A DNA stretch of 64,000 nt from Periconia sp. R9002 (taxonomy: Eukaryota; Ascomycota; Dothideomycetes; Pleosporales; Periconiaceae), in NCBI GenBank assembly GCA_023627715.1, contig JAMAHW010000087.1, forward strand, positions 1-64,000, read 5' to 3'. Positions 32,237 through 38,543 of this stretch are shown piece after piece. The position numbers were made by a program, and so were the translations under genes. Numbering within the stretch: position 1 is the first letter of the stretch; every line of letters starts with the position of its first letter. Below the pieces are notes generated by a model. That model was not told the origin of the DNA and searched no databases. It worked only from the letters and a program-made list of their open reading frames with translations.

Positions 32237-34288
32237 CTACCACTCCCAGACGAAAAAAGCAAAAGATCCAAGAACATACGGCCCAGTGAGAGCGACGGTC
32301 AAAACCAGACGAGACGTTACCGTCGTACACGTGAGCAGTGCGCAAACGAGGCCAACCATCACCCCGAAATTGACCCACCAAGAGTAAAACGCAAACCGCC
32401 ATACCGAGTTGGCAATCTTAGATTGCGAGAAGAGCGTGGGCATGCTGGCCGAATACGCCACAAGAATCAGCAGAACCAGAATCCACCATTTCTCCCGACG
32501 CAACCATATTAGGATGTTGGCTGGGGGTTCGAACAACGCGGGCGATTGGTACGAGATGCTGCCCCCGCGCGCATCTTGGATGGATCTGCGGATTTCGTTT
32601 TCCGAGGTGGAGGGGTGGATGTCGATGTTTAGTTCTTTTTCCATGGCTTTGGCGAGCGTGACGACGGCTTTGTATTCACCGTCGATGGTGGTGCGGCCGC
32701 GTTCGCGCATGATGTGCTCGGCGTGGAGAGATAATGCGAATATGCCGATGCTCCATAGGAGGAGCAGAACCATGACAATGTATAGCTGGATGAACGAAAA
32801 GCCCCAGCCGTAGTTCTTTGGAATCTCAGTGTCGCGTTACTAATTGGTATCAAGAGACAGTGACGTACCTCGGTGGGCTGGCACATCCCGTGTTTCTCGT
32901 TTTCAATGTATTCCTTTGTGAATTTGTCGCCGGTGGTTGTATCTACCCAAGACAATTCCCTGTCTTGCCAGGCCCCTACTTTCGCACTGGCATACTCTGC
33001 GGTGATATTGAGACGTGGGGGCTCTAGCGTGATGCCTCGCCATGTAGATGTTACGTTTCTCCCGGGCGTCTTGGTTGTGTTCTGTAGGTCTAGTTTTACT
33101 GTCAGTTGAGAACTACCATTTGGGACATCATGCAGAAACTTACAATGCCCACACTCCAATAGATAGCTGTCATCATCTCCCCAGTTGCCCAACGAGATGT
33201 CCCCCGACGTCTGTTTGTAACCAAAAGGCATTCCGTCCACGTCAATGAGTGGGCCGACTAAAACATCTCGTCAGCATAACTTCACTACAAAGTCGACGTG
33301 AGCATACGTTTGTCGTCGCGGAACAGAACCGGGAAGTCTTTTGTTTTGTTGATACGTTCCCCGTCATGTATGGTAAACATCAGCAATCCGAACTGAGTGA
33401 AAGGTATGCTGGCATTGTGTCTGTTCCGAATAGAGGGTACAGTATCGGTAGTATAGCCTGTCATAGAGCTGGCGAGAGTAGGAAACAGAAGCGTAAATGT
33501 TATGCTTGCGACTATGAAGCACGAAGCAAACCGGGAATAGAGCCCTTTCCGAGTCATCAAGTCTCGCGTAAGCCGAATTGTCGAGTAGAAGGAGGGAGCA
33601 CTGTCGAGGAAGATCACGCGGAAAGTATTAAAGGTAACCTATTTCGCGTCAATAAGAATAGTTTCTTTCTCGTTCCCTACCTGCAGCCGAACTGGGGTCA
33701 AATATTTACGTACTGGCTCAACCTCCATACTCGTCGTCACGTACGAAGCAAATGCGCGCCAACTGAAAAATGCCAATACAGCTTGGCCGCAACGACCAAT
33801 AAACTGTTCCATGTTAACTTATTTGATGAGCGTAAGCAGTGAATACTCACTACATCCCAAACAAGGTCAATAATCTTCGCCTCCGTATACGTCAACGACG
33901 CAGTAGTTTGCAGAGTAATCTGGAAGAACCCAACGGCACTCCAACCCGTGTACAAAGACGGAAACAACCTAAACTGACCATTGACGCAAGCATTTTCATA
34001 CCAGTGGACGCCGTTTGTCGAAAACTTGGCAAGTCCAGTCAAAGTACTGGAGAGGCCGACGATCCTAAGTAGCGGGCGTTAAAGTCAGTCAACCGAGTCA
34101 ATGGTAAAAGTATCCGAAACGCCACTCCACGTGGAGGCCTCCTGATACGAGTTGAGATCTGGGGGTACTGACCAGCACAGAATCAGAAACTTGAAGACCC
34201 AGCGCTTCCACCGTCGTCGTCCTCCAGAAGAAGAGCGGCTCGTGTCCCGGCCTGTAACGTCAAAGGTGATTTCCTCAATGTGTCCCAT
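32237..34288 (-). CDS. polytopic membrane protein, unknown function
   Basis: No named family recognised. Several exons on the minus strand; the first is 34173-34288, joined over an intron at 34064-34172 to WIVGLSSTLTGLAKFSTNG. Predicted helices are RWVFKFLILCW at the N-terminus, a segment at about 33845-33935, FASCFIVASITFTLLFPTL, FIQLYIVMVLLLLWSIGIFAL, WWILVLLILVAYSASM, and two more near the C-terminus (WRFAFYSWWVNFGVMVGLV; LTVALTGPYVLGSFAFFVW). Between helices lies a long soluble loop with N-glycosylation sequons (about 32890-33250), suggesting an extracytosolic domain. The overall design resembles fungus-specific hypothetical membrane proteins. Middle exon borders are less sure than the ends. 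Its first intron is one of the three related sequences reported as possible introner-like elements. Confidence 0.7.
34064..34172 (-). repeat. intron with introner-like sequence, copy A
   Basis: A 109-bp intron of the membrane-protein gene: donor GTCAGT, branch-like CTGACTTTAAC, acceptor TACTTAG. It shares CCTCCACGTGGAGTGG and the 3' block CTGACTTT...CCCG.TA..TAG with copies B (35990-36107) and C (35238-35414). Confidence 0.65.
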
Positions 34289-34870
34289 ACTGCAACTAGG
34301 GGACCGAATAGGTGTAGGAAAAAATGAACAATGGAATGGAAATACAGGTACTTCGAGACATAGGATATAATCGCTATAGCGTGCTACGCCGCTCGCAGTT
34401 CGCATAAGAACACCGCCTCATATAAGTCTTCCATCATCACGGACCACAGCTTTTAGGAATCCTATCATGTCGACCTATCAGATCCATGAAAATCTATATC
34501 TTCAGCGGTAAGCTAGTTAATAGAGGCGTAGCGTAGGGGGCGAAAAACCGTGCGTAGTGTCAGATTCAGCTGAAAGCATTTCTTTTGGCAATTGAGCTGT
34601 GGAATTGTCCAATGAGCAAAAGAGAACGCTATTTACATAAGAATCTGAGTAAGATTTTCCCGCATCAAGCCCCTTCCTTCACTGCGAAGGGTTAGCTTGA
34701 AGTGGAACGTTGGATGCTCGCTTGTTAGACTGAGGTTTCATGCATCACTACCGTCTTCTTTTATAGTGTATGAGAAGCTTCGATTACACCAATCAATTGC
34801 GAAGAAGAAAATACTTTTGGTGAGAAGCTTCGAACAAGCTCGAAAGTTTCCCTTTTTTTGATTTTTATTC
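34289..34870. other. intergenic boundary region
   Basis: AT-rich upstream region of the membrane-protein gene. Two GAGAAGCTTCGA segments near 34769 and 34821 are a short duplication. No gene seen. Confidence 0.45.
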
Positions 34871-34954
34871 GTGTTCAGTGTTCAGTGTTCAGTGTTCAGT
34901 GTTCAGTGTTCAGTGTTCAGTGTTCAGTGTTCAGTGTTCAGTGTTCAGTGTTGA
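34871..34954 (+). repeat. heptamer minisatellite (GTGTTCA)n
   Basis: Eleven perfect GTGTTCA units followed by one imperfect unit (GTGTTGA). The purity implies recent expansion or active slippage. Confidence 0.97.
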
Positions 34955-34960
34955 GGGGTA

Positions 34961-35045
34961 GGGGGTATAATGTACATGAATTTGATCAACCGTGCAGTGC
35001 TGGGGGTATAATGTACATCGTCGAGGAAGGGGGTATAGTGTACAT
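34961..35045 (+). repeat. three spaced copies of GGGGGTATAATGTACAT
   Basis: Copies at 34961-34977, 35002-35018 and 35029-35045 (the last with TATAGTG). Spacing is unequal (41 and 27 bases between starts), so this is not a simple tandem array; it follows directly after the heptamer array. Confidence 0.85.
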
Positions 35046-35237
35046 CCAATGCCATGCATGCCATTCATCCGTTCGCCCATGAATCAATTCGTTCAGTCAT
35101 TCATCCATCGCCGCATACAAAGGGCAGCCATGCGTTGTTTTCCATCTCCGAGAGTCAACATCGAGGTACTCAAACATCCATTTCCCTCTCTATTCAATCA
35201 ACCAATCCTCCAACCTTTCAAGCAGAAAAAATGACAC

Positions 35238-35414
35238 CTATATCGTGGGTACAAAGTCAGCTAAATTCAATGGGGGGTGATATAATGAGTGATGAATGTC
35301 TGAATATACCACTCCACGTGGGGTCTCGATAACAAACGACTCTGTACCACCTGCCCTGGAACTGGGCGCCAAACGACGGCGAGCGTCTAAAGGAAATGAA
35401 TGAAGACGACATAC
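35238..35414 (-). repeat. introner-like sequence, copy C
   Basis: Bounded on the minus strand by a GTATGT donor (35409-35414) and an ATATAG acceptor (35238-35240). Core shared with copy B: CGAGAC-CCAC, TTTAGCTGACTTTGTACCC and the acceptor block; core shared with copy A: CCACGTGGAGTGG. It lies just downstream of the CTK2 tail stop codon at 35443, so it may be a 3' UTR intron. Confidence 0.55.
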
Positions 35415-35442
35415 CTCTCCCATAGTTTCATCCTGGCTCGGA

Positions 35443-37828
35443 TTAGTCAGACGGGGTATAGTGAGAAGATTCGTGCTTGCGAGCGGAACGGCGCTGACGA
35501 CGTCCGCGTTGACGTTCGCGTCTGCGGACACGACGTTGGAGGGCAAGTTCGTCTAATGGTTCCTGCTCTTGATGGTGGGTGTTGTCGTCTCCGGAACCAC
35601 GATGATCATCTTGACCTCGGTCTTGGCTGCGTTCGTAGTTGGACCTAGGTGCCCGAGTAGACATTTCCTCGGCCTCGCGATCGTAATAGTCTGTTCGGCC
35701 CCTATCAGGGCTGTTCAGGAGGTCGTAGTTGGGCCTGTAAGTAGATGCACGGGGATAGATGTTGCCACTACTGCTTCCATATTTGTACTTGGGGTCGTAG
35801 GGCGTATAGCTCCTACCACGATGGCTCCCACCACGACGGCTCCGGTGTTCGTAGTCGCCCTCGAATGGTGAAGCGTAGGATTCGTGACGTGAGCGAGTAC
35901 GTCTATCTCCCTCGTAATCGTCGCGCCGGTCCCTGTGCCTCTTACCACGACTGCTCCGATACTCATAGTCGGATTCGTATGGCGAGGTCCTATACCGGGG
36001 TTACAAAGTTAGCTATGTACAGCCAGGGTGGTAACAGTACATGACTAGTATCTCCACAGGCCACGCGATGTGGTGTCTCGAAAACAAAAGACTGGGTATA
36101 TACTTACGTTCTAGCGGTCTGAGAGCGATGCGAATCGCGTTCGAATCCTCGTCCATGCTCGCCGTAGCCGTCATCTCCAAAGCGACGTGCTGTGCTACGT
36201 TCATCTGCAGCCCGTTTTGCTCTATCGGCTGCTCCGGCGATGCGGAAATCATCCTCCTCATGCGAAGCATCACGTGAGAGACGGACGGAACCAGTGCCCC
36301 AATTGTTAGAGTAAGTACGCTGCTAGAGATGCATGTTAGACCCGGGAAAAACCGTGAAAAGAGCAGGAACAACATGCAAAAAACAAACGTAATAAAAGAC
36401 AAGCAAGAATCGAAACGCAAAAATCAAGTTCACAAACACATTCGCAGTTCAACGCACTCTTCGTCTGTCTTGCTCCCACTCCCTATCCCGATCTCTACCG
36501 CGGTCATAGTCGCGATCGCGGTCACGATTCTTCTCCCAACCGCGGTCCCGATCACGGTCACGGTCACGCTCAGGTTCGACCGCGACCTCTTCTTCATATT
36601 CTTCCTCTTCCGCCTGCCAATAACTGTTCACGATAGTAGTCTCTTCTTTTGCCCGCTTTGCGCTGAGCATGAACCTCACTGTGCCGGTCTGACCCCTGAT
36701 TCCGATAGTGGAAGGAGGGGCAGCTGTGCCAGGAGAGATTTGATCTGCAGGCGAGTTCGCATCGAGGCCGTTGCGGGTGTTGGATGCACCGTTTGTGTTT
36801 TGATCGGACGTTTGGGAGTCGACATTTGTGCCCACCTTTTCAGAGGCGTATTTGCAGTATCGAGGAATATTCTTACTGGAGGCTTCCTGGTTGAGACCAA
36901 TGCGGAGGTTGATGAAGGTTTCGAGGCTGTATAGCGGACCTACGAGGGTCGAGCTGCGATAGTGCGTATAGAGATCCAACAGGTCAAGCAGTGTTTCCAT
37001 GACCTCCGCTCGATCTATGCCCCATGATTTGTACTCTGCTATTCCAGTATCAACAACCTTGGACATGTCCTCGCCATGCAGGCGTGCAGAAAGTTCCAAA
37101 CACGCAATCGCCATGCCAATCGCGGTTTGCTTCAATGGCGCCCATGTCCGGTACAGATCGATGCTCAAGTCCCACGCAGTCATTCCTATAGGATCTAGTG
37201 GGAAACCCAATTGTTTGGCGATCTTGATCATCAGCTTCTGCGGATGTCGGGTACGGAAGTCGAAGCCCGCGCTCTTGAGCATGAGGCGTTCGAGCTCAAG
37301 GATGACCCTGGAGTGCTGTTCGAGACGCTAGAAGCCATACATGTCAGTACTACTATCGCATGTCACATTTGAAGGCGGAGAGGACATGTATCTCACCGGA
37401 TCGTCGCTACTAAGCTGTTCTCCAACATCGACTCTCAAATTATAGTGTGCCGCCAGGATCTCACGGCTTTTCTTCAATGTATCCTCAATCTTGCAGGCCG
37501 AGAAGAGTGCCGCAGCTGCCGCGTCTGCAGAGTTGTATTCGTGATCGGCATGTAGCAAGCGAAATTTGTGATAATAGACGACAGCCGTGTTGAAAGTGCG
37601 CACGGGAAGCTGGAGCGCGCGCCGCACCTGGTCGATGTAGGCCACACCTTGCAGTCGAGCGGCATCTTCTCTCGCATCGCTCATTCCGAGGTTGTTCAAG
37701 GCTTGCTGGATCGCGGATTGCAATACGTATGGTCTCGCCACTTCAATGTGGGACGGATGAGGGCCAATGCGAGCGTCTTTGGCTGGCCCAATGGCAGGCG
37801 CTTCGGCGGGAGAGGCGGTCGCCGCCAT
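35443..37828 (-). CDS. CTK2: CTD kinase I cyclin subunit (Ctk2) with RS/RD-rich tail
   Basis: Ctk2 is the cyclin partner of the Ctk1 kinase that phosphorylates the RNA polymerase II C-terminal domain. Exon 1 (37397-37828) and exon 2 (to about 36458) encode the cyclin fold: IGPHPSHIEVARPYVLQ, RALQLPVRTFNTAVVYYHKFRLLH, AAAALFSACKIEDTLKKSREI, then GFDFRTRHPQKLMIKIAKQLG. Exon 2 ends in RD dipeptides and reads into a stop at 36449. However, a donor GTGCGT directly before that stop, an intron 36323-36457, exon 3 (36108-36322), intron 35990-36107 and exon 4 (35443-35989) join without any frame break. They add about 250 residues rich in RS, RD, YE and SY motifs, giving about 687 residues. Exon 3 has no usable ATG of its own, which favours the fused model. 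The cyclin identity is firm; the tail is inferred. Confidence 0.8.
35990..36107 (-). repeat. intron with introner-like sequence, copy B
   Basis: A 118-bp intron in the CTK2 tail: donor GTAAGT, 3' block AGCTAACTTTGTAACCCC then GGTATAG. About 100 bases align with copy C, including TCGAGAC-CCAC and the 3' block. Confidence 0.65.
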
Positions 37829-38543
37829 GGTGGCATGCAAAGCGTCGCTCACTGTAAAGTAGAAAAAGAATGTAGGTGCTTCAACAGTGTAAAAGGTTGA
37901 TCGCAAGGGTGCTCTTCCAGCGGCAAGCGCAAAATCAGCAATGCCGCTCAGAGTGTGGTGGGGGAAGAGTCAAATGGCGAGGTGGGATTTTGTAAATGTA
38001 GGTCGACGGAGCTGCCCGCATTAGGTGTTTACAGCTATAGTGGTCTGTGCACGCGCGCTCTTGCCCAAACCCAACAGCTACCCAGCCTTGGACAGGCTTT
38101 CATGTGACGCGTGACGATGTGGCACGGCTAACACGAATGCACATATGTAATGCCGTAGATCCATCCCCGCAAAAGGGAGGATCACTTTTTCATTCTTCTC
38201 TAAAAACTCCATTACTGTTTTGATGGAACCATTCAATGACGGTTCACCTATGCACCCCTATATACACTATATGCGTTACCTTCCCCCCCTTCGTCCCAAC
38301 ATGGATATTACTGCGTCGTAGTCGTCAAGAAAATGAAGTATCCGGTGCCCTCGTTACCGAGCCGTGGCACAAATATTAGAAGGTCTAATGTAGAGTACCG
38401 GAATGAATCTAGACAGAACTTTTCTCCAAAAGTCCTGCGCTATTCTCATCCCAGAAGAATCGAATCAAGAACTCCACGCTATGGATGCCAACGCCGAATC
38501 TGCTAAAGTGCAAATCACACAGCAGTGGAAAGGGATCAAACAT
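37829..38543. other. CTK2 promoter / ERG5 3' flank
   Basis: No gene recognised. Contains one GACGCGTGACG sequence near 38106. Confidence 0.5.

Follow-up and report, generated by a model that had tools for sequence, protein, structure and literature searches.

A short repeat family with a 3-bp target duplication, predicted to act as introns, in the genome of Periconia sp. R9002

The window analysed here is a stretch of 64,000 nucleotides from contig JAMAHW010000087.1 of the ascomycete Periconia sp. R9002 (assembly GCA_023627715.1), whose genome comprises 42.9 Mb in 267 contigs. For a CYP61-type protein of the window, the closest named match is the protein of Byssothecium circinans (Pleosporales, Dothideomycetes), with 91% identity. 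Three intron-like segments, A, B and C, are located between positions 34,064 and 36,107 (Table 1). A preliminary description of this DNA took them for introner-like elements, i.e., related introns that multiply in the genome. A repeat family with predicted introns in unrelated genes was indeed found; C, however, lies past a stop codon, A is a weak and probably old member, and the likeness to stably folding elements is poor. By sequence, B and C are members of an extensive genome-wide repeat family, which is very probably a short, non-autonomous DNA element whose insertion duplicates 3 bp of target and which is able to act as an intron in coding sequence.

A, B and C share the minus strand and thus the same orientation, as had been described, and their relationship was compared with 500 dinucleotide-shuffled pairs. 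B and C reached a local alignment score of 43 (best shuffle 29) and A and C a score of 29 (best shuffle 23), both above every shuffle. The pair A-B alone is at the chance level (89 of the 500 shuffles equal or beat it). When a profile was constructed from 76 other copies, its three top places in the window were C (E=4.6e-31), B (1e-20) and A (0.096, weak). The end-to-end score of A against the family consensus was matched by none of 2000 shuffles. Of the window's 44 segments with splice motifs and a similar length, only one, inside C, outscored A; the second in rank overlaps A, and the best of the remaining 42 reached 5.25 vs 21.75. A separate repeat represented by A was considered and rejected; a genome search with its DNA returns only A itself. 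A is probably a weak, old family member, as judged from these scores. The DNA of B matches 20 other genomic places with 71-88% identity over the aligned part, and the nearest copies of C are 93% identical.

Excision of B with the boundaries first given, 35,990-36,107, fuses two open frames, and the unspliced sequence runs into an immediate stop; B remains a predicted intron. For A, described as 34,064-34,172, the predicted intron is one base shorter and its exact removal leaves an open frame. C had been described as an intron-like segment of 35,238-35,414, which would put its donor at 35,414. The repeat covers only part of that span and starts about 95 nt beyond the stop codon at 35,443-35,445, and for this reason C cannot be counted as a demonstrated intron; its first 11 profile positions are absent or replaced. 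The gene names given earlier (CTK2 for B, a membrane protein for A) find only partial support: a cyclin domain is present in an open frame upstream of B, and no Pfam match was obtained for a nearby frame of the gene of A. Stable folding holds for C, whose fold clearly exceeds those of shuffles in stability (z -2.6), and not for A (0.2) or B (-0.6). The palindrome pointed out in A is the counterpart of the element's core.

A whole-genome search, as proposed in the preliminary description, returned many further copies of the B/C repeat. Searches that tolerated up to three mismatches located the 3' end GACTTTGTACCCACGATATAGG at no fewer than 150 sites, the 5' end GTTGAACTCCAGGTACAGAGTC at 154 or more and the core pattern at 180 or more; reversed versions of the three patterns, used as a control, were found at none. 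The copy counts are lower bounds, with loci (numbered with L) drawn from about 100 places per pattern. Both ends are present in 108 of the 163 distinct copies read, and 75 have a length of exactly 123 bp. The two main subfamilies, 1 and 2, contain 46 and 60 copies, with two copies unplaced and about 14% divergence inside each. Joined coding frames in different genes indicate many similar predicted introns in unrelated genes of this one genome. In viral contigs, no exact match to the 20-base 3'-end pattern was found.

Several loci showed further peculiarities. Some copies at L106 and L053 carry many C-to-T or G-to-A changes that resemble repeat-induced point mutation. L104 contains two copies about 400 bp apart, apparently in one gene, and L163 one subfamily 3 copy (see below) and one subfamily 2-like copy, also apparently in one gene. 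At L033 (~1490-1742) two same-strand copies are separated by TGT alone, as if the duplicated target of the first copy had been reused; other exact 3-bp spacings between neighbouring copies depend partly on extrapolated ends, and L033 alone is plain. The upstream flank of L131 (query 8-68) adjoins another repeat with many genomic places at ~89-100% identity.

Target site duplications (TSDs) were assessed in the 108 full-length copies, with the 55 incomplete copies omitted. Identical flanking triplets were found in 58 copies, with 23.5 expected and a maximum of 35 in 2000 permutations; no comparable excess of full matches was found for flank repeats of length 1, 2 or 4-10. The matching triplets fit T-purine-pyrimidine (TRY) in 55 of 58 cases. 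Subfamily 1 favours TGT and subfamily 2 TAT, and because of these preferences the permutation was repeated within clusters, where 37.0-40.2 matches were expected and the maximum of 5000 was 51, below the observed 58. The element's last base is G in 104 of the 108 copies, including 40 of the 41 that lack a G before the TSD. Since this closing G is independent of the base before the TSD, the duplication is 3 bp long and a 4-bp TSD does not fit. The triplets match in 19 of the 41 copies without the preceding G (expected 7.6, maximum 15 of 3000). Mismatched pairs such as TAT/TGT are present in five copies.

Empty sites were sought by comparing the joined flanks of 16 TSD-matching copies without the preceding G with the genome; scoring covered the best 40 of the 171 candidates. 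The joined flanks of L010 agree with an element-free paralogue on C13 in 18/18 bases through TGT and in 74% over 123 bp, apart from an additional T where the flanks meet. L010 and L164 are insertions, 4 nt apart, into copies of one other repeat. Joined with one TSD copy each, L010 and L164 agree over GGTATATGTGTATTGGTGT, and on this alignment L010 (TSD TGT) and L164 (TSD TAT) are each other's empty sites. The empty paralogous sites concern these two non-coding copies; coding copies were compared at the protein level only. L047/L140 was considered too poor for an empty site, with 75% identity across 80 bp and a gap of 4 bp close to the junction, and other junction-spanning matches were traced to neighbouring copies at the same locus and dropped.

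The element starts with GTTGAAC and ends with ATATAG|G, and about 20 nt before its end carries CTAAC or CTGAC, a branch-site-like motif conserved in subfamilies 1 and 2. With this start and end, insertion at G^TRY gives the donor GTRYGT, so that seamless removal is predicted. In the proposed mechanism, a usually 123-bp element would be moved by an enzyme that duplicates 3 bp of the target, mostly T-purine-pyrimidine (TAT, TGT). Where a G precedes the target, insertion would build G|TRY|GT, a donor of the fungal type (GTATGT, GTGTGT), and splicing from the G^T donor to the ATATAG acceptor would restore the original sequence exactly. Coding insertions would be kept mainly when in sense at G sites and would act as introns; copies outside coding sequence would need no splicing. 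B and probably A would then be older copies retained as introns, and C a younger, 5'-incomplete copy past the stop codon.

Orientation was tested for 99 of the 108 copies (nine have short flanks), using a codon score derived from 22 long open frames found in the window. The coding-flanked copies comprise 22 in sense and one in antisense orientation, with 76 copies unclear, compared with 501 sense, 485 antisense and 2014 unclear among 3000 random window positions put through the same classifier. The base before the TSD is G in 21 of the 22 coding-sense copies vs 40 of the 77 others (P=0.0001); the same number, 21, have G|TRY|GT, a predicted splice site that would derive in part from the TSD, and all 22 have element stops in all three frames. 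Selection would be the cause of this bias in orientation and donor. The share of coding-flanked copies is 23/99 vs 986/3000 random window positions, so that enrichment in genes was not seen. At six loci (L002, L003, L034, L139, L163 and L173) GTAA stands ahead of GTTG or its remnant, giving a GTAAGT donor, and the downstream triplets do not match; these donors may be post-insertion changes or mark a further subgroup.

A family of ordinary miniature inverted-repeat transposable elements (MITEs), unrelated to splicing, whose coding copies survived by chance, having happened to be spliced, would agree with the 76 of 99 copies outside recognised coding sequence and with the lack of enrichment just given. 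The ends, however, fit splice sites in the register of the TSD (AG|G, TRY|GT), subfamilies 1 and 2 share the conserved branch-site-like motif, and subfamily 3 has GTAYGT and TAG with GT next in 12/12, which leaves an ordinary MITE family improbable. Still less probable is an RNA-based introner-like element spreading by reverse splicing of the excised intron RNA, the published reading of fungal introners and a route proposed for those of ascomycetes (Gozashti 2022). Sense orientation of genic copies and seamless joins would be explained by such a route, as would subfamily 3 with both splice sites and no 3-bp TSD seen. An excised intron, however, brings its own 5' bases, and a mismatch to the 3' flank is expected where a match is observed. 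In addition, GT is missing from the donor position in 42 of the 99 copies, copies without the preceding G have TSDs, and the mutual empty sites are in a repeat, in one case (L010) without the G.

The interpretation as a DNA element acting as an intron was followed at the protein level with 35 translated joined flanks, from which 20 likely genes were picked by eye, 14 from the sense class and six from the unclear class. A Pfam domain extends across the junction in eight of the 20, four above and four below the curated cut-off; one further Pfam match stops short of the junction and 11 joined flanks had no match. Four joined flanks are gap-free at the junction when compared with solved homologues. 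They are L139, compared with Neurospora PMA1, L007, a glycoside hydrolase of GH92, L068, an aldehyde dehydrogenase, and a subfamily 3 copy in a Cdr1-type transporter. The L139 query contains, away from the junction, an 18-residue insertion resembling an ordinary intron read through. The flank triplets are TAA/CCA in PMA1, TAC/TAC in GH92 and TAC/TGT in the aldehyde dehydrogenase.

Two 11-bp blocks at positions 12-22 and 102-112, symmetric about the ends, are complementary in subfamily 1, with one G-T pair, and in subfamily 2 except for a single mismatch; there is no complementarity between the outer 11 bp. An RNA stem as the cause of their conservation was rejected, with pairs between the blocks only as frequent as predicted from independent columns and no covariation. 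Of the consensus folds compared with shuffles, one has z -2.7 and the other z -1.0; single copies have a mean z of -0.9, and in 18% the fold is more stable than the shuffles by two standard deviations. The resemblance to the stably folding introner-like elements of Dothideomycetes is poor.

At its length, the element leaves no room for a protein-coding sequence. L101 (419 bp), which has the sole widely spaced pair of ends, was considered as an autonomous partner and rejected; it resembles a copy interrupted by an AT-rich insertion, which may be a different small element. The PIF/Harbinger transposase domain PF13359 (DDE_Tnp_4) had no match in the genome, in a search whose control was positive in only one of 14 genomes. 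PIF/Harbinger elements have the 3-bp TSD TWA and terminal inverted repeats. A PIF/Harbinger MITE was rejected on the missing PF13359 matches and the TRY form of the TSD. The OrsD domain had 32 matches in the genome, mostly on small contigs; a link to the element was not found, and these matches suggest other multi-copy, perhaps mobile, genes. DUF3435-type genes had five matches in the genome. They bear on a Crypton-like origin, in which a tyrosine recombinase would produce the direct repeats by site-specific recombination and not by staggered cuts. The non-palindromic TRY target, the five mismatched pairs and the ends, which are not inverted repeats, are consistent with it. Cryptons have direct repeats of 4 or 6 bp, however, where only 3 bp are found here (PMC3212892), and no link between a DUF3435-type gene and the element was found. 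Such an origin is unlikely; it is a sub-case of the explanation preferred here, with another enzyme and the same intron-making mechanism.

A third subfamily of 12 distinct copies, 120-121 bp long, was found via core matches without the usual ends. It has the form GTAYGTTC...TTTTAG (start GTAYGTT, end TAG) and is followed by GT in 12/12, equally compatible with a 2-bp duplication and with a mere preference for GT. A carboxypeptidase domain extends across the junction in one of three copies tested. Open frames were found in its short flanks in 11/12 copies in sense and in 11/12 in antisense, so there is no orientation signal. In sequence, subfamily 3 looks like introners without TSD. Ascomycete introners might generally come from DNA transposons, with subfamilies 1 and 2 dependent on the duplicated target for a donor and subfamily 3 with the donor built in; this generalisation is doubtful. 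If it is true, subfamily 3 on its own would fall among the fungal introner-like elements that lack a TSD.

Several points weigh against a DNA element with a 3-bp duplication that acts as an intron. The subfamily preference explains part of the raw TSD excess, and no 3-bp TSD was seen in the 12 copies of subfamily 3. The TSD matches in 9/22 coding-sense copies vs 42/76 of the unclear class, and among the four gap-free genes the 3-bp pair is intact only in GH92 (L007). The L174 paralogue, taken as support alongside the L010/L164 pair, is one base off the expected empty site. Terminal inverted repeats (TIRs) were not found at the element's ends, the complementary blocks being subterminal, 11 bp inside each end. 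Neither a transposase nor an autonomous copy was found, and no long element was present among the loci read, which represent part of the genome. The coding classifier is simple and overlooks some coding copies, as follows from the six likely genes that came from the unclear class. Splicing in the cell is suggested by reading frame and homology only.

Introners are said to derive from several transposon classes, and a Micromonas type of DNA-transposon introner has reportedly been described. In the dinoflagellate Symbiodinium microadriaticum, DNA-transposon introners have TSDs and co-opt the donor, as here; they have a 4-bp TSD and terminal inverted repeats, whereas the ascomycete family has a 3-bp TSD and subterminal blocks only (Gozashti 2022). 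The same paper describes ascomycete introner families without TIRs or TSDs and a strong gene bias of fungal introners, and also counts families with TSD and without TIR. The introner-like elements of Dothideomycetes are of the same class, with many similar introns in unrelated genes that are longer than usual fungal introns (Collemare 2015). Compared by description, those elements are without TSDs or TIRs and gene-biased (Gozashti 2022), whereas the present family has TSDs and no coding bias; a mention of TSDs was not seen in the available part of Collemare 2015. The repeated stwintrons of Xylariales share with the family near-terminal inverted repeats, of 10 nt, able to pair as RNA; they are nested introns without TSD (PMC12403724), and no sign of nesting was seen in the present family, where none was sought. 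Cryptons resemble the family in having short direct repeats and no true terminal inverted repeats, and differ in their repeats of 4-6 bp, against 3 bp here, and in encoding a recombinase, whereas the present family has no coding capacity (PMC3212892). No report of fungal or Dothideomycete introners with TSDs was found in the literature, the coverage of which was incomplete.

The features of the window are summarized in Table 1. Between the gene of A and C, about eleven head-to-tail 7-base GTTCAGT units (34,871-34,952) and three near-copies of gggggtataatgtacat (34,961-35,046), two identical and the third with one change, were noticed by eye.

Table 1. Segments A, B and C and adjoining open frames in the 64,000-nt window
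Feature	Positions	Strand	Remarks
Segment B	35,990..36,107	-	Predicted 118-nt intron GTAAGT...GGTATAG; diverged copy nearest subfamily 2
Profile match of B	35,989-36,095	-	E 1e-20
Segment C, repeat part	35,237..35,348	-	Subfamily 1 copy; profile positions 12-123; end ATATAGG, then TGT
Segment C, extra 66 bases to GTATGT	35,349..35,414	-	Outside the repeat; matches elsewhere start at query position 67 at the earliest
Segment A	34,065..34,172	-	Predicted 108-nt intron GTCAGT...CTTAG; probable ancient copy
Weak profile match of A	34,097-34,138	-	E 0.096
Open frame downstream of B	35,443..35,989	-	Ends in stop codon 35,443-35,445; from the open reading frame list and the joined translation
Open frame with cyclin N-terminal domain	37,331..37,969	-	Pfam Cyclin_N, E 4.3e-5; upstream of the B exons, same gene assumed

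The family bears on how fungi gain introns. The 3-bp TSD, the paralogous empty sites and the target-derived donor put an ascomycete on the DNA-transposon side, and the many sites in one genome make this idea of intron gain directly testable. Since a built-in donor is present in one of the related subfamilies and absent from the others, they may offer a route to see a transposon become a self-contained intron.

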